Shown one piece after another: positions 3,482 to 24,120 of a stretch of 64,000 bases of DNA (its first letter is position 1; each line of letters opens with the position of its first letter). The position numbers and the translations under genes are program-made. The DNA is from Alphaproteobacteria bacterium. Lineage in GTDB: Bacteria; Pseudomonadota; Alphaproteobacteria; Thalassobaculales; Thalassobaculaceae. The DNA lies in NCBI GenBank assembly GCA_022822665.1, contig JAJEAR010000039.1, positions 62,001-126,000 on the forward strand. The letters run 5' to 3'. Under the pieces are notes generated by a model. The model saw only the letters and a list, made by a program, of their open reading frames with translations, had not been told where the DNA came from and searched no databases.

Positions 3482-5074
3482 TCAGATCTCGTCGCTGTAT
3501 GAATAGTCCCGGTCGAGTCTGCGGGCCATGGCGCACGCGTGGGGAGCGCTTTCCGCGATCAGCGCAAGCACGTAGTCGTCGTCCGGCAGCCCGGCGGCCG
3601 CGGCAAGCATCCTTATCTCGTTCAGCCGGTCGCCCTCCGGAGGAAGAACCGGCACGGGCAACGCCACCTTTTCCCGTGCGGGCGGTGGGCCGGCGTGCAG
3701 CACGGGGCGCCTGTTCCGCCATTCCGTTGCGGCTTCGAATGCCTGACCAGCCGCCAGCACCGTCCGGTCCCGGAAAGGCGCCCCCGCTATCTGCACGCCG
3801 AGCGGCAAGCCGCTCCCGGAGAAACCGGCCGTTATCGTCAACGCCGGGCCGCCGGTTACGTCAAAGGGTGTGGTGATGCTTGGATATCGCCAGAAGTTCG
3901 CGGTGTCATGCGCGTCGAGCCGCGGTGCCGGACCTGTCGCCGACGGCGCTATCAGCACATCGAAACGTTCGTGGACCGGTTCCATCGCGCGCCGGAGTTG
4001 CCGCCAGCGGCGGTGCGCGGCGACATAGTCCTGCGCAGTGAAACAGACAGCACCGAGTACACGGGACAGGAAGTCCTGACCGAAATCGCGCGGGCGCGTC
4101 TGCAGGTCGCGCCGGTGGACGTTGAAGAGTTCGCTCTCGGCGATGGTGATCTTGACATCGTACCAGTCCTGCACCGGGGGCATTCGCGCCGTTTCGACGT
4201 TGGCGCCCAAGCGCCGGAATACCTCCGCCATGTGCTCACAGGCCGCAACCATTTCCGGTGCGACCTTCAGATCCTCCTCCCAGTAGTGACGCAGCAGGCC
4301 GACGCGCAGTCCGGCCATCGAGACCGGCGCCGGATGCTGCGGACAGTCGAGTGATCGCGGGTCTTCCGGATCATGGCCGGCGAGAGCGTCAAGCAGCAGG
4401 GCACAGTCCTCCGCTGTCCAGGCGAGCGGCCCGCAATGGTCGAATGTGAAGGAGTTGGGGATGACGCCCCGACGACTGACGAGCCCGTAACTCGGCATCA
4501 GTCCGGCTACGCCCGACAATGCGGCAGGGCCCCGAATGGATCCACCGGTATCGGTGCCGAGCGCACCAAGGCAGAGGCCGGCTGCCACGGCAACGCCGGA
4601 GCCGCTCGACGAACCGCCAGAGAAGTGATCCGTGTTCCAGGGGTTCCTGGCCGGCGGCCAGGGCAGGTCGAAGCTCGGACCACCATGCGCAAATTCATGC
4701 GTCGCGAGCTTGCCCGTGATCACCGCGCCGGCTGCCTTCAGCCGCCGTACGGTTTCGGCATCCCTGTCCGGAACGCGGTCCAGCCGGGTCCTGGATCCCC
4801 CCGCCGTCAGTACACCGGCCGTGTCGTAGATGTCCTTGAGCGCAACCGTGACACCGTGCAGGGGTCCTCGCCGCCGGCCGGCGGCGATCTCGGCGTCTGC
4901 CGCCCTGGCGTCCTCCAGCGCACTCTCGGCCATCACCGTCACGTGGCTGTTCAGGTACGGATCATGGGTCTCGATGCGCGCCAGCGTCGCCTCGACCAGT
5001 TCCACCGACGACAGCTGCCGCGCGGCAAGTGCCCGCGAAGCTTCGGCAAGCGTGAGAGTCGCGAGTTCGATCAT
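3482..5074 (-). CDS. Amidase signature family hydrolase
   Basis: The 530-residue protein shows the amidase signature: catalytic Lys near residue 80 in VALKDIYDTAG, and the Gly/Ser-rich block GGSSSGSGVAV followed by GTDTGGSIRGPAA, which supplies the cis-Ser and nucleophilic Ser of the Ser-cisSer-Lys triad. The length and the extended C-terminal tail suit a stand-alone amidase rather than GatA, since no gatB or gatC is adjacent. Such enzymes hydrolyse carboxamides to acid plus ammonia; the substrate cannot be read from sequence. It is transcribed away from boxC, leaving a 440-bp shared upstream region. A second amidase of the same superfamily begins at 63584. Confidence 0.9.
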   Translation of the reverse strand: MIELATLTLAEASRALAARQLSSVELVEATLARIETHDPYLNSHVTVMAESALEDARAADAEIAAGRRRGPLHGVTVALKDIYDTAGVLTAGGSRTRLDRVPDRDAETVRRLKAAGAVITGKLATHEFAHGGPSFDLPWPPARNPWNTDHFSGGSSSGSGVAVAAGLCLGALGTDTGGSIRGPAALSGVAGLMPSYGLVSRRGVIPNSFTFDHCGPLAWTAEDCALLLDALAGHDPEDPRSLDCPQHPAPVSMAGLRVGLLRHYWEEDLKVAPEMVAACEHMAEVFRRLGANVETARMPPVQDWYDVKITIAESELFNVHRRDLQTRPRDFGQDFLSRVLGAVCFTAQDYVAAHRRWRQLRRAMEPVHERFDVLIAPSATGPAPRLDAHDTANFWRYPSITTPFDVTGGPALTITAGFSGSGLPLGVQIAGAPFRDRTVLAAGQAFEAATEWRNRRPVLHAGPPPAREKVALPVPVLPPEGDRLNEIRMLAAAAGLPDDDYVLALIAESAPHACAMARRLDRDYSYSDEI

Positions 5075-12611: not shown

Positions 12612-14273
12612 ATGGACTTCAACTACCCCAACGTACTTAACATGTTCCAACAGTACCTTGATCCAAAGAGAAACGAAAGCGCCTCATTCCTGATTTGGTA
12701 CCTCGAGAACTATTACCGCCTTGATCCCCAGGAGGCTGTGGATTCAGTTTGCGACCAGAGGGGAGACAAAGGTATTGATGGCATATACGTAAACGAAAGC
12801 ATGCAAACAATTGTCATATTCCAGTCTCGGCTATCACAAAAGAACACCGCTGTTGGCGATACAGGATTAAAGGAGTTTGCGGGTACATTACTTCAAGTAA
12901 AGGATGCACAAAGTGTCAACAAGTTAATTCAAAGCGCGGGCAACGCCGAAGTGGCACGGTTGCTAAAGCGGCTTGAAATAGCAGATAAGATTTCTGAGTA
13001 CGAGTTAAGAGGGGAATATCTCTCAAATATCGAGCTGGACGCTAATGGAGAGGCGTATGTAGATCAGTCTCCTCACATTGGATTCATTGGACGAGAGTTT
13101 CTGAAACAAACCTATATTTCCGACAAACGAGACAATCCAATTCATACTCCAATTACCTTTGATGTTTCCAGTTTTCAAACTACCGAGTACACAGTTGACG
13201 CTAACAGCAAAGCTTACATAGCACCAATTCGCGCACAAGATTTGATTAAACTGGATGGCATCGACAATCAATCTCTCTTTATTCACAATGTGCGAGGCCC
13301 ACTTGGACGCACAACCGTTAACAGAGGCATCACGAAGAGCGTCAGCGAACCTACACTTCATAAGAAGTTTCCATTATTTCATAATGGTATCACAGTGATC
13401 GCTGGAAGTATTGATGCCACCGAAGAAAGGATTACGATTTCTGACTACTTTGTCGTCAATGGTTGCCAAAGCATTACATCTTTGTACTTTAATCAGTCCA
13501 AACTAACCGACAATCTCTATGTGTTAGCTAAGTTTATTGAAGTCGACCCTACCTCATCTTTGGCCAAGCAAATTACTGAATTCTCTAACAATCAGAACGG
13601 GGTAAAGGCACGTGACTTCAAGGCAAATAGTTCCCCACAAATTCGATTGCAAAATGAGTTTCGCCGCGACTACATGGGAGTCTATGACTATGCAATCAAG
13701 CGTGGGGAAGAGGTGCATAGAGGCACGGTGATTTCTAATGAAGACGCTGGACTTTATCTGATGGCGTTCGATCTCATGGAACCGTGGGCCACACACAGAA
13801 AGTATCAGGTATTCGACGATAAACATTCCGAAATATTTGGACGACCCGCGGTTACGGCAGATAGAATCGTTATGTGCCAGGTTGTCCGGGAGTCCATTGA
13901 ATGCGTTCTGGGAGAAATAAACAATCAGTTACTGGCAAAGTACGTGTTGACGCGATATCTGTTAATGTATTTGGTGCGCCGCGTATTCGATTCCGAAGAA
14001 TTTGGCAAGAATATTGTTGCTAATCCCCGACATTTTGTTCGAGGTGTCGCTGAGAGAAGGAAGTTTAAAGCGTTGGTAGAAGGAACATTACGTGACATTG
14101 TCACTGACTTAAATTCCGAAGTTGATGAATACGGAGACGATTTTGATTATAGGGGGCGGTTGCGTGACGAACAGTGGGTCATTAAGCTTGGCAGGGAAGT
14201 CGTGGCTCTCCGGGAAAAGTTGGTAAGGAGGGGAAATATCCGAGCAATCAGCGCAGAGTGGCAATCTCTTTGA
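12612..14273 (+). CDS. AIPR-family (abortive infection phage resistance) protein
   Basis: The 553-residue protein has the conserved AIPR core: LFHNGITVIAGS (about 256-267), then SDYFVVNGCQSITSLYF (about 276-292) and ITEFSNNQNGVKARDF (about 318-333). The N-terminal region, with DQRGDKGIDGIYV and IVIFQSRLS, resembles a restriction-endonuclease-like D...(E/Q)xx fold. AIPR proteins are named from plasmid-borne abortive-infection genes and also occur as stand-alone defence or restriction-associated genes. The gene is clearly AT-richer than its surroundings and uses A/T-ending codons freely, so it was acquired from a different genome. It stands alone, with no methylase or partner gene. The reading frame is intact and it is the only apparently functional defence gene in this island. 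Confidence 0.85.
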   Translation: MDFNYPNVLNMFQQYLDPKRNESASFLIWYLENYYRLDPQEAVDSVCDQRGDKGIDGIYVNESMQTIVIFQSRLSQKNTAVGDTGLKEFAGTLLQVKDAQSVNKLIQSAGNAEVARLLKRLEIADKISEYELRGEYLSNIELDANGEAYVDQSPHIGFIGREFLKQTYISDKRDNPIHTPITFDVSSFQTTEYTVDANSKAYIAPIRAQDLIKLDGIDNQSLFIHNVRGPLGRTTVNRGITKSVSEPTLHKKFPLFHNGITVIAGSIDATEERITISDYFVVNGCQSITSLYFNQSKLTDNLYVLAKFIEVDPTSSLAKQITEFSNNQNGVKARDFKANSSPQIRLQNEFRRDYMGVYDYAIKRGEEVHRGTVISNEDAGLYLMAFDLMEPWATHRKYQVFDDKHSEIFGRPAVTADRIVMCQVVRESIECVLGEINNQLLAKYVLTRYLLMYLVRRVFDSEEFGKNIVANPRHFVRGVAERRKFKALVEGTLRDIVTDLNSEVDEYGDDFDYRGRLRDEQWVIKLGREVVALREKLVRRGNIRAISAEWQSL

Positions 14274-14405
14274 GGATACGTGTTAGGTGAACTAACGGCT
14301 TTGCCGGAAAGGCACCACTCTCCAACTAGTTTATGAGTTCGGTCTAATTCCCAGTCGTTTGACTGTTTCAGCGATGTGCCTGCTTGCCCTTTTTGTTTTG
14401 AAACA

Positions 14406-14689
14406 TCATGAGCATGCCCGAGTGGAGTCAATTGTACCAATCTGGTCGCTCATGGCGCGTCTGGCGGTTAGAACAGCGCGAGACTTGATCTGGTAGCGGA
14501 GCCCGGCGTCGTCAGTGGTATCATGGGCAGGGACGATGGTTAGACCGAAAAGTCGGGCCGATTCGTGTTCATAGACCTTGCTGGTGATTCCGAGGGTTTG
14601 CCCGTCAGGCGATGGTAGTCGGCTGCAGCTTGTTTTGCTCGGGCCAGAACTGCAGTCACGTCGTTCACGTGGCCTAAGTTATCGATCAT
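14406..14689 (-). pseudogene. Frameshifted 5' fragment of a conserved (DUF6998-like) protein
   Basis: From the ATG at 14689 the minus strand reads MIDNLGHVND, ARAKQAAADYHRLTGKP. After a one-base loss near 14597 the next frame continues LGITSKVYEHESARLFGLTI, then YQIKSRAVLTARRAMS and a TGA at 14406. The pattern tGKPLGvTgEvaEyEAarLLgL followed by QIKgR is what I recall from DUF6998 proteins, a family of unknown function; the match is from memory. The C-terminal half is missing. The remaining gap to 14891 shows nothing else. Confidence 0.5.
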
Positions 14690-14891
14690 GGGTGACCACC
14701 AGAGAGGAACTGCTGTTGTGCATGTTTCGTTTCTTAGTTCGGGCAGCGATGAGGCGCGTGACTCCCCATGCTACGCATCGTTGAGGGCGGTGTAACCACT
14801 CACCCGTCAGGGGGCGGGTCAGGTAGGGTATGACCTCGATGTGGGCAGGAACGCTCACTGAACGATGACGGGCGGCTCTTCACGTTCCTGT

Positions 14892-15280
14892 CTACTGGCG
14901 CGACGGTTCAACGGCGAATGTCCTGCTGATGTCGAAGACGTAGGTGTAAGCGCCGATTTTTTCCGGGCCAGCGGATACAAAGCCGGGAATAAGTCCGATT
15001 GCGGAGAGTGCGAGCCCGATCGGGTCGCCGGTCGAGAATGACCACGCACCGCCTGCGAGTCCAAGCGACCAGGCTGCTAGGTTCTTGCGGAGTTCGCGAC
15101 GGGAGGTCTGCTGGAGGTCGTGCGCGTGGTCGGAAATCTCCTGTCGTCGTTCAAGCAGCAGTGCTTCGCGGTCGGCGGGTACAGTAACTTCGGCAAGCTC
15201 GATCATGCATCGCCGGAGATTGCGCATGTAGGAACGGTACGAGTTGTGGTGCTCGTCGCGGAACTGCAACACCTCGTCGA
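14892..15280 (-). pseudogene. 3' part of the gene split by the transposon (C-terminal 128 codons)
   Basis: On the minus strand this reads (L)DEVLQFRDEHHNSYRSYMRN and ends with a Gly-rich hydrophobic stretch (GLALSAIGLIPGFVSAG) and AYTYVFDISRTF. The 5' part lies at 23138-23771. Deleting 15285-23137 plus one copy of the 4-bp repeat GCGG joins SPIP(L) to LDEVLQF in frame, giving a 340-codon gene. Without its 5' part the fragment is not expected to make a functional protein. The family is uncertain (see the 5' fragment). Confidence 0.85.
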
Positions 15281-15284
15281 GCGG
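15281..15284. repeat. Left copy of 4-bp target-site duplication (GCGG)
   Basis: GCGG directly precedes the left terminal repeat of the transposon, and GCGG at 23138-23141 directly follows the right one. Collapsing the two copies restores the interrupted gene in frame, which is better support than four bases alone would give. Confidence 0.8.
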
Positions 15285-15302
15285 TGAGCGTGGGCAGGCT
15301 TT
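15285..15302 (+). repeat. Left terminal inverted repeat of the transposon
   Basis: TGAGCGTGGGCAGGCTTT, matching the right end TGAGCGTGCTCAGGCTTT at 16 of 18 positions. A second motif, GGCTCGGATTGAGCGATGG at about 15325-15343, resembles one inside the right end. Confidence 0.85.
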
Positions 15303-15456
15303 GAGCGGGGATTTTGGGCTGATCGGCTCGGATTGAGCGATGGACTGTAGTGTGCGCCCCCCGGCGAGCTTGCAAAAGTTCGTCCGGGGGGCTTTGTCTC
15401 GGTGACGGCTAAACCACCGGACGAGTCCAATGTCGCACACGCTGTGCCGAAGCTCC

Positions 15457-16044
15457 ATGCTTTCGGATCCGCGCGTCTGGTCGTTCCTGACGCAGGTTGA
15501 CGCGGCCGAGGCGGAGACCTGCCGGAAGGCGGGCTGTCCGCGCTGCGGCGGCGTTCTTCACAGTGCCCGGTATCCGCGCAAACCGTACGGTCTTGCGGTC
15601 GCATTACGCGGCGATGTCTGGCGTTTCAGCTTCTGTTGCGCAGCGTGCCGGGGACGTGAGACGCCACCGTCGGTTCGCTTCTTCGGGCGGCGCTTCTATG
15701 TGGGCGCCCTGTTCCTTCTGGTGAGCGCGCTGGCCCTGGGTGGCGGTGTGCGCCTGCAGACGATCGCGCGGCGCTCGGGGATTCCGGTCCGGACGCTGAA
15801 GCGCTGGCGGCGGTGGTGGCAGGAGACGTTCCCGACGACGCCTGAGTGGCGGGTGAAGCGGGGTGCGCTGGCGCCGCCACCCGGGGAAGCGCCCCTGCGC
15901 TGGCTGTTGCGGACCATGCGTGGCCACACCCTGCGCGCCCGTCTGTTGCGCAGCCTGGTGTGGCTGATGCCCTGGACGGGATCGTGCGCTCTCGGCGATG
16001 GGCGGACGATGTCCGCAGAAAGCGTTTCTGTCATGACCGCATAG
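15457..16044 (+). CDS. Transposon-associated zinc-ribbon/helix-turn-helix protein
   Basis: The first gene inside the transposon encodes about 195 residues from the ATG at 15457 (15430 is a possible earlier start). A zinc-ribbon is visible as C-x2-C in GCPRCGG and a second pair in FCCAACRG, followed by a helix-turn-helix-like stretch IARRSGIPVRTLKRWRRWW. It lies 44 bases before the transposase gene on the same strand. Small zinc-binding HTH proteins often help transposases choose targets or bind ends (TniQ/TnsD-like roles), but a specific role here is inference. I do not recognise a named family. Confidence 0.6.
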   Translation: MLSDPRVWSFLTQVDAAEAETCRKAGCPRCGGVLHSARYPRKPYGLAVALRGDVWRFSFCCAACRGRETPPSVRFFGRRFYVGALFLLVSALALGGGVRLQTIARRSGIPVRTLKRWRRWWQETFPTTPEWRVKRGALAPPPGEAPLRWLLRTMRGHTLRARLLRSLVWLMPWTGSCALGDGRTMSAESVSVMTA

Positions 16045-16088
16045 GGCGTTCTACACCGGCCTCCCGGTGACGGAAGGGAGATGCCGGA

Positions 16089-16643
16089 ATGGACAGGGAC
16101 GACCCGGTCGCCAGGCGCGAGAAGTGGGCACGGCTCCGGTTTGCGGTGGTGGGACCGCTGCTGGCGTCGCCGCCGCCGTCAGGCCAGTTGCGGGCTGCGC
16201 TTGAGCGGTTGTCGCATCTGGAGTGGGAGCATCCGTCGGGCGCCGGGCGGGTGCGCTTCTCGGTGTCCACGATCGAGCGCTGGTACTACCAGGCGCGGGC
16301 GGAGGATCGCGATCCGGTCAAGGCGCTGCGTCAGAAGCCGCGGTCCGACATCGGCCGCGAACGGGCGATGTCGCCGGCGCTGATCGAGGCGCTGCGCGAG
16401 CAGTACCGGGCGCATCCGTCGTGGTCGGCGCAGCTGCATTACGACAACCTGCGGGTGCGGGCCGAGGGCGATCCAGCGCTCGGTCCGATGCCCTCCTACG
16501 CGACGCTCACCCGGGCGATGCGGGCGCGCGGCCTGGTGCGCAAGCGCCGCCGCAAGTGGTTCGAGGGCGAGGAGATGCCCGCGGCCGACACCCGCGAGGT
16601 CCTGAGCTACGAGGTCTCGCGCAGTCACGGGCTCTGGCACGCC
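16089..16643 (+). pseudogene. 5' half of the DDE transposase, split by the RIT element
   Basis: These 185 codons start MDRDDPVARREKWARL and carry the N-terminal DNA-binding region, with a HTH-like FSVSTIERWYYQAR. They run to the conserved block before the catalytic core, SYEVSRSHGLWHA. The next codon in the 3' half at 20092 is Asp, in DFHHGKRRVLTSSGEWVTP, which intact relatives have in direct continuation. The open frame runs 39 bases into the RIT end before a stop. Rejoined, the protein would have 489 residues, normal for this transposase type. Confidence 0.88.
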
Positions 16644-16674
16644 TTATGTGGCGGTCGTCGTTATGTGGCGGTGA
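16644..16674 (+). repeat. Left inverted repeat of the RIT element
   Basis: 31 bases identical in reverse complement to 20029-20059, extending to 37 with one mismatch. Each repeat contains two direct copies of TTATGTGGCGG, 17 bases apart. Another copy in reverse orientation (CCGCCACATAA) sits inside the left end at 16715-16725. These look like multiple recombinase arm or core sites. Confidence 0.92.
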
Positions 16675-16782
16675 TCCCGTAGACCCGCAGTAAGAATGGA
16701 ATCACGCCACCTGGCCGCCACATAACCTAGAACACGGATTCCCGTTCAGTGATCGTGCTTTCCCGCTCAAGGAGGCACGCTC

Positions 16783-18036
16783 ATGTTCGAGAAACTGTTC
16801 GAGCGCCCGCACACGATTGAGAAGTACCGGTCGGCAGCGCTCTACGAGGACCGGCTCAGGTATCTGGTCCATGTGGCCGACGGTGGCGCCACACCCGACA
16901 CGCTCTACAAGATTGCCTATCATCAGCTGAACCTGCTTCGTCTCCTCGACCTGCGGGAAGGCGAAACGGTGACGCTGCCCCAGCTCACCACCGTGATCGA
17001 CGCGCGGTTCGATCGCGCGGGGCGTACCGGTGACCAGCGGACCCGGTCGAGGTCGTCAAGCGAGTTCCTTGGATACGCTCTTCGATGGTTGCGTTTTCTG
17101 GGTCGCGTCGAGGAGCCCGCGGTCCCCCGCCACCCCTACGCCGCCGAGATCGAAGCGTTCACCGCCTGGATGCGCACCGAGCGAGGCCTGTCTGAAAAAA
17201 CGATCTACTTCTGTTGTCAGGCGGTTGCCGACTTCCTGAACAGGCTGGCGGGACGGAACGTCCCGCTGGCGGTGGTCGAAATGGCCGATGTCGACGAGTT
17301 CGTTGCCGCGAAGACGGCCAGCGGATCGTGCAAGCGGGCAACGATCAACAACTACGCTCGCTATGTTCGGGCCTTTCTCGCCTTTGGCGAAGATCGGGGC
17401 TTGTGCCGATCCGGCCTGGCCGGAGGCATCATTCCTTCGAGGATCTACAAGGATGAGCCGATCCCGGCAGGAGTGTCACGCGATGACGTCCGGCGCCTGC
17501 TGGCCGACACCGAGGGAGAGCGACCGGGTGACAAGCGGGATCGCGCGATCCTGATGCTCCTCGTCGGATACGGCTTGCGGGCCGGAGAGGTGTGCGACCT
17601 GCATCTGGACGACCTCGACTGGGAACAGGAGACGATACGCGTCCGCCGGAGCAAACCGGGGCGAACCGACGTCTATCCGCTGTCCCGTGGCGTCGGACAG
17701 GCGATCCTGCGCTACCTGGTCGATGTCCGCCCTCAGCGGCCTGAACGCTCCCTGTTCCTGACCCTTCGCGCTCCGAGACGACCGTTACGCACGAGTGCTG
17801 TCTCGGAGATCGTCCGACGGCGGCTGGGTCGTCTCGGTCTCAAGACGAAGCGGCGTGGGGCGCATGGGCTCAGGCACGCCGCCGCCCAGCGTCTCCTCGA
17901 CCATGGCCTGTCGATGAAGGCCGTCGGCGACTACCTCGGGCATCGCCGCATCGCATCCACTTCGGTGTACGCAAAGGTCCATCTCGAGGCCCTGCGAGAA
18001 GTCGTCGCCGACTTCGATCTGGAGGGTCTGGCATGA
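16783..18036 (+). CDS. RIT element tyrosine recombinase A
   Basis: The 417-residue protein has a SAM-like N-terminal DNA-binding domain (about 120-230) and a catalytic domain with GLRAGEV (Arg I), HGLRHAAAQRLL (HxxR), GHRRI and the nucleophilic Tyr in TSVYAKVH near the C-terminus. It would cut and rejoin DNA through a 3'-phosphotyrosine bond. It is the first of three recombinases read as one unit: its TGA overlaps the ATG of the next gene by four bases. A good AAGGAGG site precedes the ATG. All active-site residues are present. Confidence 0.93.
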   Translation: MFEKLFERPHTIEKYRSAALYEDRLRYLVHVADGGATPDTLYKIAYHQLNLLRLLDLREGETVTLPQLTTVIDARFDRAGRTGDQRTRSRSSSEFLGYALRWLRFLGRVEEPAVPRHPYAAEIEAFTAWMRTERGLSEKTIYFCCQAVADFLNRLAGRNVPLAVVEMADVDEFVAAKTASGSCKRATINNYARYVRAFLAFGEDRGLCRSGLAGGIIPSRIYKDEPIPAGVSRDDVRRLLADTEGERPGDKRDRAILMLLVGYGLRAGEVCDLHLDDLDWEQETIRVRRSKPGRTDVYPLSRGVGQAILRYLVDVRPQRPERSLFLTLRAPRRPLRTSAVSEIVRRRLGRLGLKTKRRGAHGLRHAAAQRLLDHGLSMKAVGDYLGHRRIASTSVYAKVHLEALREVVADFDLEGLA

Positions 18037-18980
18037 CAAGCCTGCGGGAAGCGATCGACGGCTACGTCGCATGGCAGCGCAGTCATGGCGCGACGTTCGT
18101 CTCCGGCGCCTACCTCCTGAACAGCTTCTGCAGGAGCTTCGACCAGGACACCGAGTGCGACGCGGTCACCGAGGCCCAGGTGAGGGTATTCCTCGCCGGC
18201 ACCGGACCGCTGACCCGTTCCCGTTCGACCCGCTACGGCGCCCTCGCGGGGTTCTACCGCTACGCGATCAGCCGACGATATGCGTCGCGCTCGCCGTTGC
18301 CGGACAACGAACCGCCGCGGCCCCGGTCGCCGCCGTCCTACATCTATTCCCGTGACGAGGTGAAGCGGATCTTCGGCGTCGTCGATGAATGCCGGCGCGA
18401 TGCGCGCAAGCTCGACGCCGATACCTTTCGCACGCTCATCCTGCTTCTGTACGGAACCGGACTGCGCCGCGGGGAGGCGTGCCGCCTGACTGTGGAGGAT
18501 GTCGACCTGGCCGAGGCCGTGCTGACGATCCGCGACACCAAGTTCTACAAGAGCCGGCTTGTGCCGGTCGGCCCGCGGCTTGCCGATGTGCTGCGAACCT
18601 ACGCGTCACGCCGTGCCGAACGCCCGATGAAGGCAGGCATCACCTCAACTTTCCTGGCAAATCGGGATGGATCGCCGGTCAACGGGTCGTCGGTGCATCG
18701 AGCCTTTAGCGAACTGCTTCGAGCGGCGGACATCCATGCCAGGAACGACGGACGCGGGGCGCCCTGCGTGCATTCGCTGCGCCATTCATTCGCCGTTCAC
18801 CGGCTGACCTCATGGTACCGGCTGGGTGCCGATGTGCAGCGGCTGCTGCCGGTCCTCGCCACCTTTCTCGGGCATCGCGACCTGAATGGCACCCAGGTCT
18901 ATCTGTCGATGACCCCCGAGCTGCTGCACGAAGCCTCGCTGCGCTTCGAACACTACGTCCATGGAGAAACCGATGAATGA
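18033..18980 (+). CDS. RIT element tyrosine recombinase B
   Basis: 315 residues, middle gene of the trio. Catalytic residues are visible in GTGLRRGEACRL (Arg), HSLRHSFAVHRL (HxxR), LGHRDLNGTQVYLSM (His and Tyr). The N-terminal region resembles a core-binding domain, with RSRSTRYGALAGFYRYAI. Translation is probably coupled at both ends: ATGA overlap with gene A, and a 20-base overlap with gene C. In RIT elements the three recombinases are distinct subfamilies that keep the same order, which implies that all three are needed. Confidence 0.92.
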   Translation: MTSLREAIDGYVAWQRSHGATFVSGAYLLNSFCRSFDQDTECDAVTEAQVRVFLAGTGPLTRSRSTRYGALAGFYRYAISRRYASRSPLPDNEPPRPRSPPSYIYSRDEVKRIFGVVDECRRDARKLDADTFRTLILLLYGTGLRRGEACRLTVEDVDLAEAVLTIRDTKFYKSRLVPVGPRLADVLRTYASRRAERPMKAGITSTFLANRDGSPVNGSSVHRAFSELLRAADIHARNDGRGAPCVHSLRHSFAVHRLTSWYRLGADVQRLLPVLATFLGHRDLNGTQVYLSMTPELLHEASLRFEHYVHGETDE

Positions 18981-19968
18981 TGTCGACACACTGGGCCCCT
19001 GGCTTCGCCGCTTCCTCACCGAACACATAGTCAGCGAGCGCAATCTGGCGATCAACACACGCAAGAGCTACCGCGACACCTTCTCGCTCCTGCTACCCTT
19101 CGTCAGCGCCGGGGTCCGCAAGCCGGCGGACCGGGTGGTCGTGTCCGATCTCACGTCCACGCGGATCCTGCAGTTCCTCGCCCATCTCGAGGAAAGCAGG
19201 GGATGCTCCGTGCAAACCCGAAACCAGCGCCTGGCGGCACTCCGCTCGTTCGCCAGCTTCGTGGGCAGCCGTGAGCCGACGCTGGTGGAATGGTGCGGCA
19301 CCCTTCGTGCCATCCCGTTGAAGAAGGCGGCGACGAAACCGATCGGTTGGCTGACCAAACCCGAAATCCATGAGATCCTCGCGGTCCCCGATCGCGCGAC
19401 ACTGCAAGGCCGGACCGAATACGCCCTGTTACTATTCTTGTACAACTCGGGCGCGCGAGTGTCGGAAGCCACGCAGTTGCGGATGGCAGACATGCAGATC
19501 GGCCGCACGGACGGCGGCCATGCGCTCGTTACCCTGAACGGCAAGGGCGGAAAGATCCGTCAGTGCCCGCTGTGGCCACGCACCGAACGCGTCCTCGCCG
19601 AACTGGCAAGGGGGCGGACAGGCGGCGATGCGGTGTTCCTCAGCCGGTACCGCAAACCCTACACCCGGTTCGGCGTGTACCATCTGGTGGCGCGCAGCGC
19701 GGCCGGCGTGCCGTCTCTGGAAGGCCGCAAGATCACGCCCCACGTGATTCGGCATTCCACGGCCTGTCATCTGCTTCAGGCCGGTGTCGACATCAACACC
19801 ATTCGCGCCTGGCTCGGCCATGTCAGCCTCGAAACCACAAACATCTACGCCGAAATCGATCTGGAAATGAAAGCCAGGGCGCTGGCGATCTGCGACGCGG
19901 CGGAGGCTGGCCCGCACCGCCCGTGGAAGGAGGACAACGGACTCATGGCCTTCCTCAAGGCACTGTGA
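18961..19968 (+). CDS. RIT element tyrosine recombinase C
   Basis: 335 residues, third gene of the trio. It is XerC/D-like in style, with an N-terminal SAM-like region (TRNQRLAALRSFASFV) and catalytic motifs NSGARVSEATQL, HVIRHSTACHLL, GHVSLETTNIYAEID. All expected residues (R, HxxR, H, Y) are intact. It overlaps gene B by 20 bases, and about 60 bases remain between its stop and the right inverted repeat. Confidence 0.93.
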   Translation: MEKPMNDVDTLGPWLRRFLTEHIVSERNLAINTRKSYRDTFSLLLPFVSAGVRKPADRVVVSDLTSTRILQFLAHLEESRGCSVQTRNQRLAALRSFASFVGSREPTLVEWCGTLRAIPLKKAATKPIGWLTKPEIHEILAVPDRATLQGRTEYALLLFLYNSGARVSEATQLRMADMQIGRTDGGHALVTLNGKGGKIRQCPLWPRTERVLAELARGRTGGDAVFLSRYRKPYTRFGVYHLVARSAAGVPSLEGRKITPHVIRHSTACHLLQAGVDINTIRAWLGHVSLETTNIYAEIDLEMKARALAICDAAEAGPHRPWKEDNGLMAFLKAL

Positions 19969-20028
19969 CGTTCCAGATTATGTTGTGGTCATGTGGTGGG
20001 ATCCCTTGTTAACAACGGGATCACGGGT

Positions 20029-20059
20029 TCACCGCCACATAACGACGACCGCCACATAA
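20029..20059 (-). repeat. Right inverted repeat of the RIT element
   Basis: Reverse complement of 16644-16674 over 31 bases. A degenerate TTATGTTGTGG-like copy lies just inside at about 19978-19988, so both ends seem to carry an array of related sites. Confidence 0.92.
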
Positions 20060-20091
20060 GGCGTGAGATGTTATGTAGAACATCTCACGCC
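20060..20091. repeat. Perfect 13-bp-arm hairpin at the right RIT junction
   Basis: GGCGTGAGATGTT, a 6-base loop ATGTAG, then AACATCTCACGCC. The inner 26 bases are absent from the reconstructed transposase. The first six bases GGCGTG are the reverse complement of the CACGCC found on the left flank and at the hairpin end. It may be an attachment-site relic or sequence brought from a previous site. Confidence 0.8.
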
Positions 20092-21006
20092 GATTTTCAT
20101 CATGGCAAGCGCCGGGTGCTGACATCGTCGGGCGAATGGGTGACGCCGATCCTTCTGGGGTTCCTCGACGATACCACCCGGCTCGGCTGTCACCTGCAGT
20201 GGTATCTCGCCGAGACCGCGGAGGTCTTCGTCCACGGGCTGTCCCAGGCCTTCATGAAGCGCGGCCTGCCGCGCGCCCTGATGAGCGACAACGGCTCGGC
20301 GATGACGGCGGGCGAGGTGGAGGAGGGACTGCACCGGCTCGGCATCGTCCACTCCCGGACCCGGCCGGCTCATCCCCATCAGAACGGCAAGATGGAGGTC
20401 TTGTGGGCCTCGGTCGAGGGTCGGCTGATGGCGATGCTCGACGGCGTCGAGCCGCTGACCCTCAAGATGCTCAACGACACCACCATCGCCTGGCTCGAAC
20501 AGGACTATCACCGCCGGGTGCACCGGGAACTCGGCACCACGCCGCACGCACGACTGGCCGAGAGCGCCGACGCATCCAGGCCGTGTCCCGGCTCCGACGA
20601 GCTCAAGGCGGCGTTCCGGATCACCAGAAAGCGGACGCTGAGGCGCTCGGACGGAACCGTCTCGGTCGAGGGCATCCGCTACCAGGTGCCGCGGCCATGG
20701 CGCCACCTCGCCACGCCCCGGGTCCGGTACGCGCGCTGGGACCCGGCCAGCATCGATCTCGTCGACGGGCAGACCGGCGAGCGGCTGTGCGCCCTCTACC
20801 CCGTCGACAAGCGCGGCAACGCCGATAGCGCGCGCCGTCCCACGGCTGTCGACACCGCAGATGGCAGCGGCGACGGCAGTGGTGAAGACGGCCTGCCGCC
20901 GCTGCTGCGGACCATGCTCGACGCCCAGGCCGCGACCGGCCTGCCGCCGGCCTGGCTGCCACACACATCCACTCCCGACACCGACGATCAGGACGAGAAC
21001 TCATGA
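20092..21006 (+). pseudogene. 3' half of the DDE transposase (catalytic domain)
   Basis: 304 codons begin with the first catalytic Asp (DFHHGKRRVLT). They include the second Asp in MSDNGSAMT and the Glu in HPHQNGKMEVLWASVEG, so a full DDE triad of the rve/integrase fold is present, followed by a C-terminal beta-rich domain (GTVSVEGIRYQVPRPW). Upstream open frame from 19993 belongs to the RIT end and is not the true start. The stop overlaps the ATG of the ATPase gene (ATGA). Without its 5' half the protein lacks the end-binding domain. Confidence 0.88.
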
Positions 21007-21836
21007 ACCGAGAGCTGCTCACCTTCTACGGGCTAAAGTGGAACCCGTTCGCCCCCGACCTGCCGGTCGACAGCCTGATGGCGACCGCCGCCGTCGACAG
21101 CTTCTGCCTCAGGATCGAACGCCATCTCGTGCGCCACGGCGGCTTCGCGCTGATCGCCGGCGAGCCCGGAACCGGAAAGAGCGTCGCACTGCGTCTGCTC
21201 GCCCACCGGCTCGGACGCTGCGACGGGCTCAGGGTCGCCGCCATCACCCACCCGTCCTCGAGACTGTCCGACTTCTACCGCGAGATCGGCGAGTTGTTCG
21301 GCGTCGACCTGATGTACAACAACCGCTGGGCCAGCTTCAAAAACCTGCGCCGGCGCTGGCTCGCCCACCTCGACGACACCCGCATGCGCCCGGTGCTGCT
21401 CATCGACGAGGCCCAGGAACTGCTGCCCTCGGTGTTCTCCGAGATCCGCCTGCTGGCGTCGACCGACTTCGACTCGCGCGCCATCCTCTCGGTGATCTTC
21501 GCCGGTGACAACCGCCTGCTCGACCGCCTCCGCCAGCCCGACCTGCAGCCCATCGCCTCGCGCATCCGACAGCGCCTGCTGATGACCCGGGCCGAGGACG
21601 GTGAACTGACCGGCCTGCTCGACCATCTGCTCGAAGAGGCCGGCAATCCGGCGCTGATGACCGCCGGGCTCAGGGACACCCTCGTCGCCCATGCCGCGGG
21701 CAATCCCAGGGCGCTTACCGTCATGGCCGATGCCGTGCTCGCAGCCGGCGCCGAGAAGGACCGCGAGGTGCTCGACGAGAAGCTCTTCATCGAGACCCTC
21801 GGCGAGGCACCATCATCCAGGCGGGCCCGGCGATGA
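21003..21836 (+). CDS. Transposition ATPase (ExeA/TniB-like AAA protein)
   Basis: The 277-residue protein starts MNRELLTFYGLKWNPFAPDL, the N-terminus typical of ExeA-like transposon ATPases. It has Walker A GEPGTGKSVALRLLA (about 54-68), Walker B VLLIDEAQELLP (about 131-142) and a C-terminal arginine-rich lid region. MuB, TnsC and TniB are functional analogues: they bind DNA in an ATP-dependent way, choose targets and activate the DDE transposase. The gene overlaps the transposase by four bases and the next gene by four bases, so the three are co-translated. Confidence 0.88.
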   Translation: MNRELLTFYGLKWNPFAPDLPVDSLMATAAVDSFCLRIERHLVRHGGFALIAGEPGTGKSVALRLLAHRLGRCDGLRVAAITHPSSRLSDFYREIGELFGVDLMYNNRWASFKNLRRRWLAHLDDTRMRPVLLIDEAQELLPSVFSEIRLLASTDFDSRAILSVIFAGDNRLLDRLRQPDLQPIASRIRQRLLMTRAEDGELTGLLDHLLEEAGNPALMTAGLRDTLVAHAAGNPRALTVMADAVLAAGAEKDREVLDEKLFIETLGEAPSSRRARR

Positions 21837-22855
21837 CCGGCTTCCCGACACGGGCTCCGGCCGAGCTCGAGGACCGACCGAGGGAGCGACAGTGGATGGT
21901 CGAGGCGCTGTGGAGCGAGCAGGGCGTGGGCATCATCGGCGGCGAGCCCAAGTGTGGCAAATCCTTCCTCGCGCTCGACCTCGCCGTCTCGGTGGCCGCA
22001 GGGGTGCCGTGCCTGCGCCACTTCCCCACCGCCACAAGCGGCACCGTGCTGCTGTTCGCCGCCGTGGACGCCGGCCACATCGTGCGCGACCGCCTCCAGG
22101 GCATCGCACGTGCCGCCGGGGCCGCGTTCGAGGCCCTCGACATCGCCGTCATCGATATCCCGGTTTTGCGCCTCGACCACCGCACCGATCGCCAGCGCCT
22201 CGGCGAGACCGTGCAGCGCATCGCGCCTCGCCTCGTCGTCCTCGACCCCCTGGTGCGCCTGCACAGCGTCGACGAGAACGCCGTCGCCGAAGTTGCCCCC
22301 ATCCTCGGCTTCCTGCGAGACCTGCAGCGCCGCTTCGAGACCGCCGTGATACTCGTCCACCATGCCAGAAAGAGCGGCGCCACGCGACCGGGCCAGGCGC
22401 TCAGAGGATCGTCCGAACTGCACGCCTGGGGGGACAGCAATCTGTACCTGCGTCGCCGCGAGCGCCAGATCCTCATGACCGTCGAGCATCGCGCCGCTCC
22501 CGGCCTCAACGATATACAGATCGAACTCGCCGACGACGCAGACGGCCCGGCGCTGCGTCTCCGCCACGCGGAAGCCGCCCAGGATGCGCCCCGGCCCGAC
22601 ACACCGGAACAGCGCATCCTCCAGGCCCTCGCCAAGGCCAATGCCCCGCTCTCCCAGCGCCAGATCCGCGAGCGCGCCGCGACCCGGCCGAAGACCGTCG
22701 CCGAGGCGCTGGGCACGCTCGTGCGCGAAAACCGCGTCGAGCGTGCCTCTGAAGGCGGATACCGCCTCGCCGCCGGCCCGACAGAGACCGACGACGTCAA
22801 CGACAGAAGCCCCGGGTACCCGTTACCGAAAACCGTTACCGCCCCCAACCCCTAG
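21833..22855 (+). CDS. RecA-fold AAA_25/RepA-like ATPase carried by the transposon
   Basis: 340 residues. Walker A is GGEPKCGKSFLALDLA (about 35-50), Walker B is LVVLDPLVRLHSVDE, and a sensor-like VILVHHARK is followed by ALRGSSELHAWGDSNLYLRR. This resembles RepA-type hexameric helicases and the AAA_25 family used in plasmid and phage replication. A winged-helix-like C-terminus (LSQRQIRERAATRPKTVAEAL) follows. Its place as last gene of a transposon operon suggests a replication or target-handling role, which is inference; classic Tn7 or Tn5053 sets do not include such a protein. Confidence 0.8.
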   Translation: MTGFPTRAPAELEDRPRERQWMVEALWSEQGVGIIGGEPKCGKSFLALDLAVSVAAGVPCLRHFPTATSGTVLLFAAVDAGHIVRDRLQGIARAAGAAFEALDIAVIDIPVLRLDHRTDRQRLGETVQRIAPRLVVLDPLVRLHSVDENAVAEVAPILGFLRDLQRRFETAVILVHHARKSGATRPGQALRGSSELHAWGDSNLYLRRRERQILMTVEHRAAPGLNDIQIELADDADGPALRLRHAEAAQDAPRPDTPEQRILQALAKANAPLSQRQIRERAATRPKTVAEALGTLVRENRVERASEGGYRLAAGPTETDDVNDRSPGYPLPKTVTAPNP

Positions 22856-22883
22856 ACAGACAGGGTAACGGTAACGGGTAACA
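22817..22883. repeat. GTTACC/GGTAAC iterated inverted repeats at the end of the transposon operon
   Basis: CCCGTTACCG and CCGTTACCG near the gene end face GGTAACGGTAACGGGTAAC just after it. The two sides can pair as a long imperfect hairpin across the stop codon. It could be a terminator or a replication-like iteron site. No T-run follows. Confidence 0.5.
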
Positions 22884-23119
22884 CCCACCGCCAGACGTCA
22901 TCGCCACATTGTGTCGAGCGATCGGCACATGGCCGAAAGCTCTGCTTACGGCCATGGCGGCTCTTCGTCGGATGGACGGCGACGGGTCACCCGAAGGGCC
23001 GGAGCGAAGCGGAGGAGCGGCGAAGCCGCTTGACGCGTCGACGACCGTCCGGCACCCCGGCACCATCAGTCTGAGCCGACAATCGAAACCCTCAAATAAT
23101 CCGAGCACCCTGCCATCAG

Positions 23120-23137
23120 AAAGCCTGAGCACGCTCA
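23120..23137 (-). repeat. Right terminal inverted repeat of the transposon
   Basis: Reads TGAGCGTGCTCAGGCTTT inwards on the minus strand. Inside it, motifs such as CATCAGTCTGAGCCGAC (about 23065-23081 on +) resemble inner motifs of the left end. The region 22884-23119 has no gene. Confidence 0.85.
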
Positions 23138-23771
23138 GCGGGATCGGTGAAAGATCAAAGGCCACCGGCTCGAGATCCAGTTGGATGACATGCTGCTTGG
23201 AAGGCATGGCCTGCATCGACAGGGTTTGAATGAGGTCGGACACGGCGGGGCCATGGTTGGTCGTGGGATGGATCGTCATTCCGCGGTGTTGTCCGATGGT
23301 GCGGGAGAGCTGTCCAAGAATGACAAGTATTGTGGTGCGAACCGTGGGATGCAGGGGAACGGAGACGCCGTCTTCGCTCTGCTTCGCGAGTCCTTTCGCC
23401 TGCAGCTCTTCGACGAGAAAGGTCGCGAGGTCCACATCGGCGCCGTAACCTATTCGCGATTGTGAGAGCTCGGCGAAATATTTCGTTTCCGGGAGGTCGT
23501 CGAAGGAGCCGTTCGTGAGCATGTCGACAATGATGTCGCCGAGGCGCGTGGTGGTTTCCTGATCAATCCAGTTCTTGGGTTCGAGGACGTGGAGTAGACC
23601 GCGTTCTTCGAGGGGTGCGGCGAGGCTAGGATCGGCGGCGACGTGACGCCCATACATGTAGTCGGGGAGTAGGGTCGCTACGTCGTCGAAGAACAGCAAC
23701 AGGGATTTGATCCATCCGCTTTCTCGCAAACTCCAATATGGCGCTGGATAAAGGTAGGCTGTGTCGCTCAC
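23138..23771 (-). pseudogene. 5' part of the gene split by the transposon (N-terminal 211 codons)
   Basis: GTG at 23771 with GGAGG seven bases upstream starts VSDTAYLYPAPYWSLRESGW. The frame is intact to SPIP and then runs into the transposon end. The N-terminus (a tyrosine-rich YLYPAPYWSLRESGWIKSL and FDDVATLLPDYM) recalls DUF6236-type proteins of unknown function, but this is a weak resemblance from memory. Joined to 14892-15280 it makes a 340-residue protein. Its neighbours are mobile and defence remnants, so a defence role is possible but unproven. Confidence 0.85.
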
Positions 23772-24120
23772 TTGCTGGCCTCCGCCTGGAGATTGGAGAG
23801 AGTAGCGCAGAGTTCGATCTCGCATCATACCTGAACGAAGCATCCGGCGGCACACCATCCCCTGGCAATCCTTGTCGCTAGCGGACCGTGGCTATACCTT
23901 TGCCTGCGAGGCGTAAGTTTGTCGTGCCCTCTTTCCGAGGCCCGCGTTTCGGCGTGGGCCTGCGTACGTCTTGAAGCCGTCGGTTACGAAGCGCTCGCTG
24001 AAGTGATGCAGGAAACCCAAGACGGATAGTGAGAGACCAAGCACCCATCGGCCCGTCCTCGAGACCGATTGCCGCCTCGCGGATTCTCCAGACGCCCCCT
24101 TGAAGGCTACCGACCCAGCC

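Follow-up and report, generated by a model that had tools for sequence, protein, structure and literature searches.

A recombinase-in-trio (RIT) element lies in a 64,000-nucleotide stretch of DNA from an Alphaproteobacteria bacterium (contig JAJEAR010000039.1, positions 62,001 to 126,000; the whole stretch is referred to as the window), within the transposase gene of a transposon resembling Tn6049. RIT insertions are site-specific, and their targets share DNA rather than a gene. Comparison with other RITs indicates that this intact element probably entered the transposon by site-specific recombination, from a circle whose joint holds two hexamers, the target being set by short DNA arms on both sides of a free hexamer.

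The element and its ends

The insert comprises 3,448 bp (16644-20091) and cuts the DDE transposase gene of its host between codons 185 and 186. Its parts, together with the adjoining host hexamer, are as follows.

16638-16643, plus strand: left-junction hexamer CACGCC, host codons for His-Ala
16644-16674, plus strand: left inverted repeat, 31 bp, perfect, with two direct 11-bp units TTATGTGGCGG at 6-bp spacing
16783-18036, plus strand: ritA, tyrosine recombinase, 417 aa
18033-18980, plus strand: ritB, tyrosine recombinase, 315 aa
18961-19968, plus strand: ritC, tyrosine recombinase, 335 aa
20029-20059, minus strand: right inverted repeat, 31 bp, perfect
20060-20065, minus strand: inner hexamer GGCGTG (inverted CACGCC), just outside the right repeat
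20066-20085, no strand assigned: palindromic core AGATGTTATGTAGAACATCT, 20 bp
20086-20091, plus strand: outer hexamer CACGCC, in the frame of the host gene

These coordinates confirm an earlier sequence-only reading of the window, according to which three tandem tyrosine recombinases in perfect 31-bp repeats sit exactly between GLWHA and DFHHG of the transposase. The boundaries given there (16638-20097) extend 6 bp too far at the right end, and the palindrome and the triple occurrence of CACGCC described below were missed.

The rit genes are consecutive on one strand in the order A-B-C, with overlaps of 4 and 20 bp; relatives match them co-linearly, and the element contains no other gene between its ends. 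The Phage_integrase domain (PF00589) is present in RitA, RitB and RitC, and the catalytic R-H-x-x-R-Y set, as read from the translations, is complete in all three (LRAGE/HGLRH/VYAK in RitA, LRRGE/HSLRH/VYLS in RitB, ARVSE/HVIRH/IYAE in RitC). Two core-binding domains in RitA and an additional C-terminal helix in RitC have been described for RITs (PMC8138268). The total length of about 3.5 kb, the terminal inverted repeats of about 28-34 bp and the adjoining palindrome agree with membership in this group. The element appears to be intact, and its mobility may be deduced from relatives that occupy different sites.

Together with the adjoining hexamer CACGCC the inverted repeats form a perfect 37-bp match, and the imperfect repeat extends to 96 nt at 80%. 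Each repeat is composed of two TTATGTGGCGG units, and further ATGTTG/ATGTGG units are present inside. The repeated occurrence of both kinds of unit suggests several recombinase-binding sites per RIT end.

The region outside the right repeat is a 32-bp palindrome, GGCGTG-AGATGTTATGTAGAACATCT-CACGCC (20060-20091), and is part of the element. Hence CACGCC, which encodes His-Ala in the host gene, occurs three times, in direct, inverted and direct orientation. The ends of the element are organized as hexamer and inverted repeat on one side, and as inverted repeat, hexamer, 20-bp palindromic core and hexamer on the other; because of this layout, the target hexamer is found up to three times. A core of the type nnATGTTGnnnnCAACATnn between two hexamers at a fixed distance recurs in widely differing RITs. 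Such a palindrome lies about 107 bp downstream of ritC or about 150 bp upstream of ritA, also in the RITs of Cupriavidus pHG1 and of a Bacteroides plasmid.

About 100 RIT elements were compared in total. They include 80 loci from bacterial genomes (the genome scan reported 352), plasmid loci, four viral contigs and a genome of the same genus; individual loci are denoted by L with a number. The hexamers were analyzed in 23 loci where all three could be read. Loci with inverted arms formed by toprim genes (L009, L035 and others) were left out, and L007 was excluded due to wrong automatic placement of its ends. At least two hexamers are identical in 20 of the 23 loci, and all three, in six. The inner hexamer equals the outer one in 14 loci (mean 0.8 and maximum 5 in 1,000 shufflings), whereas the hexamer at the opposite end equals the outer one in nine (shuffled mean 0.57, maximum 3). 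Control hexamers taken six bases farther out in the same 23 loci do not repeat in any of them.

The position of the palindrome relative to the genes varies: some copies have it at the ritA end, others at the ritC end. Relative to the target it is constant: at one target type (L018 compared with L020 and L085) the rit genes point in either direction and the palindrome stays on one side of the target. The same holds for the window element and its relative L015/L145, whose rit genes differ in direction. Finally, the inner hexamer of L027 is the hexamer used by L028, and vice versa.

We infer the following circle and order of strand exchange from these sequences. Recombination between the outer hexamer copies would release a circle with the joint inverted repeat-hexamer-core-hexamer-inverted repeat, that is, a long palindrome. 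The joint would then hold one core with a 6-bp crossover site on either side, the two sites being mirror images, and would operate as in Tn554-like transposition. For the window element, the predicted joint is ...CCGCCACATAA-GGCGTG-AGATGTTATGTAGAACATCT-CACGCC-TTATGTGGCGG... Either hexamer could be used, so that the rit genes would be inserted in either direction while the palindrome remains on a constant side of the target. After insertion both junctions would carry the hexamer that was used, and the other hexamer would persist as a trace of a previous site. A joint with two sites would thus explain the location of the palindrome at the ritA end or the ritC end depending on the copy, the variable gene direction at a constant target side, and the inner hexamers that at times are unlike the target, as in the L027/L028 swap.

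Target sites of RIT elements

In the proposed mechanism the target would be chosen through DNA arms of approximately 7-9 bp that flank the largely free hexamer. One comparison is provided by L027 and L028, copies of one element that are 99.8% identical and reside in hsdM and in a tyrosine recombinase gene, respectively. Their sites have in common TGTG-N6-GAATGCTTG, with 13 of 14 near-arm bases matching and the hexamers being different; none of 1,716,658 background positions equals this match.

The closest relative of the window element with readable flanks (RitC 89%, RitA 82%) is represented by L015 (right end) and L145 (left end) and is inserted in a glutathione S-transferase gene. The two sites bear a modest resemblance: GCGCTCAGG-CGGTAC..CACTGC-GACTTC compared to GGGCTCTGG-CACGCC-GATTTT in the window, with 10 of 15 near-arm bases matching around different hexamers. 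A match at this level is attained at 115 of 172,600 background positions. The LWHxDF block of Tn6049 from C. metallidurans reads GCTCTGG-CACCTG-GACTTC. Another relative, L016 (78-87% identity in RitA, RitB and RitC), starts with CACGCCTTATG and has the same hexamer as the window element. The clade of the window element thus appears to read the arms GCTCWGG-N6-GAYTTY, which encode the LWHxDF block and are occasionally found elsewhere.

Alternatively, the hexamer itself could be recognized through overlap homology, so that a new target would have to match it and conserved motifs would matter by fixing the hexamer. Identity of all three hexamers in six loci and the CACGCC common to L016 and the window element are in line with this. 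However, the opposite and outer hexamers differ by one to three bases in 14 of the 23 loci, and both L027/L028 and the window/L015 pair combine the same arms with different hexamers. We thus consider hexamer recognition unlikely. Recognition appears to rest on the DNA arms enclosing a free hexamer and not on a protein motif.

The majority of the targets identified fall in conserved blocks, either of transposases and recombinases or of a group II intron. The targets and the respective loci are listed below.

IS66 transposase, CW-x-H block: L018, L020, L085, L021
IS256 transposase, the same CW codons: L037
IS66 transposase, LYR-Q block: L007, L023, L077
IS66 transposase, second Asp: L109
IS66 TnpB: L014
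IS21: L108 at the ENG-VE block; L089
IS110: L090 after GLDVHK; L030 at KNDAADAEAI
ISKra4: L094
IS481-like transposase with a gene for a TniB-type ATPase nearby: L049-L051, three copies in one codon block
Group II intron domain V: L024, L025
Tyrosine recombinases: L110 (H-x-x-R motif), L028, L029
Non-mobile or other targets: glutathione S-transferase (L015), hsdM (L027), DUF6573 (L039), phage genes (L100 and L102), the toprim-adjacent clade

From what is known of these families, some of the targeted blocks contain catalytic residues. In the IS66 transposase, the CW site is in the top 5% by conservation and the LYRQ site in the top 0.8%; random triples were as conserved as the three sites in 116 of 20,000 draws. 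The target type follows the lineage on the RitC tree, with 17 changes compared to 28.5 after shuffling and none of 200 shufflings as low.

Several loci deserve separate mention. In L110 (Cupriavidus pHG1) the RIT is located within the catalytic H-x-x-R motif (PHSLRHT) of another tyrosine recombinase gene. L024 and L025 are two copies of one RIT at an equal position in intron domain V, the hexamer being CGGGAA in GAGCCGGATG-CGGGAA-ATCCGCACGTCCGG; the D1-D4 region of the intron is matched by Rfam. Near the L024 copy, in a Longimicrobiales genome, approximately 17 tRNA genes occupy 2 kb (13367-15433). The genome of the window contains a second, truncated RIT (L014, contig C75) with a RitC fragment at 3585-4082; its right end adjoins IS66 tnpB, and an IS66 transposase is close by. 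A separate RIT clade (support 100) comprising L008-L011, L035, L036, L038, L040, L043 and about 20 more loci is located between two convergently oriented copies of a toprim-domain gene's 3' end at nearly fixed distances and lacks the usual ATGTTG palindrome. The large "inverted repeats" of L009, L035 and others were rejected as RIT termini, since they are the ends of the convergent toprim genes. Both L009 and L010 are closed plasmids, which shows that the inverted arrangement of the toprim arms is genuine.

These data bear on the possibility that RITs have low target specificity, the position at the catalytic Asp being coincidental and multi-copy transposons being hit because of their abundance. 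Such an explanation could account for the closest sibling in the glutathione S-transferase gene, the high diversity of targets in the family and the failure to find a second RIT in the GLWHxD block. On the other hand, the same codon blocks have been hit independently (CW in L018, L020, L085, L021 and L037; LYRQ in L007, L023 and L077), and the targets are clustered on the RitC tree. The near-identical arms of L027 and L028 in unrelated genes, not equaled in 1.7 million background positions, largely refute it. Overall, low specificity seems quite improbable.

The sequence-only reading had proposed that the RIT element may target conserved sequences and use other transposons as landing sites. 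The landing sites are supported by the CW-x-H block hit in four IS66 and one IS256 transposase and by the LYR-Q block hit in three IS66 transposases. Conserved codon blocks of transposases are indeed recurrent targets, but it appears to be the DNA arms and not the protein motif that are recognized. The reading had also suggested looking for other copies at GLWH(A/L)D. Leaving aside the published Acidithiobacillus composite, no second RIT was found there in about 15 Tn6049-like transposases. The searches for further interrupted Tn6049-like transposases covered up to 400 genomes each, as well as plasmids, viral contigs and the genomes of six RIT relatives, with Acidithiobacillus sequences being outside this scope; about 15 intact homologues and no other interrupted ones were retrieved.

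Several observations weigh against recombination from a two-hexamer circle directed by target arms. Neither a circle nor excision nor an empty site has been seen in this strain. Hexamers common to close relatives could partly reflect plain inheritance. The arm match of the window and L015 is modest, and the arm lengths were picked post hoc; the target arms bear no clear resemblance to the element's own core arms. Some targets are not transposases (glutathione S-transferase, hsdM, DUF6573, phage genes, the toprim clade), and the IS66 second-Asp site, at the 33rd percentile, is not unusually conserved in the alignment used.

Taking RITs as a whole, we lean towards describing them as two-address site-specific transposons, with a palindromic joint, targets read through the arms and an unused hexamer that marks an earlier home, which repeatedly settle on the DNA of catalytic blocks and parasitize transposases. 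As many transposons contain blocks of this kind, RIT lineages would come to sit at conserved codon blocks in transposase and recombinase genes and in group II introns. The anatomy of the ends yields exact predictions of the joint sequence, the crossover hexamers and the target arms. The arm rule would account for RITs in transposase genes without recognition of a protein, and it offers a model for site-specific elements that exploit the conserved catalytic codons of transposons as dispensable and widespread landing sites.

Host transposon and insertion order

The host transposon and the older gene that it splits have the following coordinates.

14892-15284, minus strand: older split gene, C-terminal part
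15285-23137, plus strand: Tn6049-like host transposon, 4.4 kb without the RIT, ends TGAGCGTGGGCAGGCTTT and its inverted copy (16/18)
15430-16044, plus strand: first open reading frame, helix-turn-helix protein, at the place equivalent to the Tn6049 "transposase" reading frame
16089-16643, plus strand: transposase codons 1-185, last residues GLWHA, IS481/IS630-like N-terminal part
20092-21006, plus strand: the other 304 transposase codons, the first being the catalytic Asp of DFHHG, rve domain
21003-21836, plus strand: AAA ATPase of the ExeA/TniB type
21833-22855, plus strand: third open reading frame, AAA_25 ATPase (340 aa)
23138-23858, minus strand: older split gene, N-terminal part

The host frame ends with ...GLW-CAC-GCC at 16643 and resumes with GAT-TTT-CAT-CAT at 20092. 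As had been noted from the sequence, removal of the element restores 489 codons (185 + 304): the joined frame is open, and the protein aligns continuously, with no gap at the junction, to intact homologues, of which the Tn6049 transposase is the best known. The insertion was also correctly assigned to one of the most conserved motifs of the transposase. When 483 six-residue blocks are ordered by conservation among 15 close homologues, the one at the junction comes 6th, and the following Asp is invariant.

The transposon has 18-bp terminal inverted repeats with two mismatches and a full-length homologue of the IS481-type DDE transposase followed by an AAA ATPase gene, as expected of a Tn6049-like transposon. 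It is flanked by GCGG (15281-15284 and 23138-23141), likely its target duplication of ambiguous length (4 or 5 bp), which restores the frame of the split gene. No Pfam family matches the latter. Since the host transposon itself splits this minus-strand gene, the order of events (gene, then transposon, then RIT) is readable, in agreement with the sequence-only reading.

That reading also considered other transposons as vehicles of RITs, in which case the composite would move as a unit with the transposase supplied in trans. The composite retains both transposon ends and the likely target duplications, and Tn::RIT composites are known elsewhere (PMC3414803). Nevertheless, the transposase is inactivated by the RIT and its gene is present in a single copy in the genome, while the published composites occupy one genomic location, a second location not having been seen. 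Hence a role of the host transposon as a vehicle is highly improbable.

Comparison with known systems

Earlier papers (PMC3414803, PMC2864759) describe RITs as such, the palindrome that overlaps their inverted repeat, and RITs inserted into IS66 tnpA, into radC and into a Tn6049-like transposase. The RITs of Cupriavidus metallidurans CH34 (Van Houdt 2012, PMC3414803; Janssen 2010, PMC2864759) resemble the window element in the overlapping ritABC genes, the length of about 3.4-3.5 kb and the terminal inverted repeat of about 28-34 bp that overlaps a palindrome. In those papers, unlike the present analysis, the palindrome is not split into a core and two target hexamers, and no target rule is given. 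The composite from Acidithiobacillus ferrooxidans (Van Houdt 2012, PMC3414803) likewise has a RIT in a Tn6049-related transposase gene, the codon being absent from the text; therefore nesting of this kind was known before. The accessible literature describes both the mobility and the targeting of RITs as untested, and Nonaka 2023 (PMC10214605) names their target specificity and the formation of empty sites in this respect. In the accessible literature, which did not include Ricker 2013 (Plasmid), no paper resolves the RIT palindrome into a core and hexamers or states a target rule. The element is of the published RIT kind, and the general target rule may be the new part.

The host resembles Tn6049 of Cupriavidus metallidurans in its gene order, with a small first open reading frame followed by an IS481-type transposase and then an AAA ATPase, and in the motif LWHxDFHHG; the transposases are 49% identical over 94%. 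It differs in that the last open reading frame of Tn6049 encodes 90 aa instead of the AAA_25 ATPase of 340 aa, and in that the host transposase is split.

Like RITs, Tn554, SE and GInt (PMC10214605, PMC5385486) use two or more recombinases, insert at specific targets and have junctions with 6 bp that can originate from either the donor or the target site. The window element has neither the TnpA/TnpB/TnpC nor the IntA/IntB/Tfp/Srap set, so that what it has in common with Tn554 and SEs is the 6-bp junction behavior only. In SEs and Tn554 the joint contains a single hexamer site and there are other accessory genes, whereas RITs have three catalytic recombinases and, as predicted here, a palindromic joint with two hexamers.

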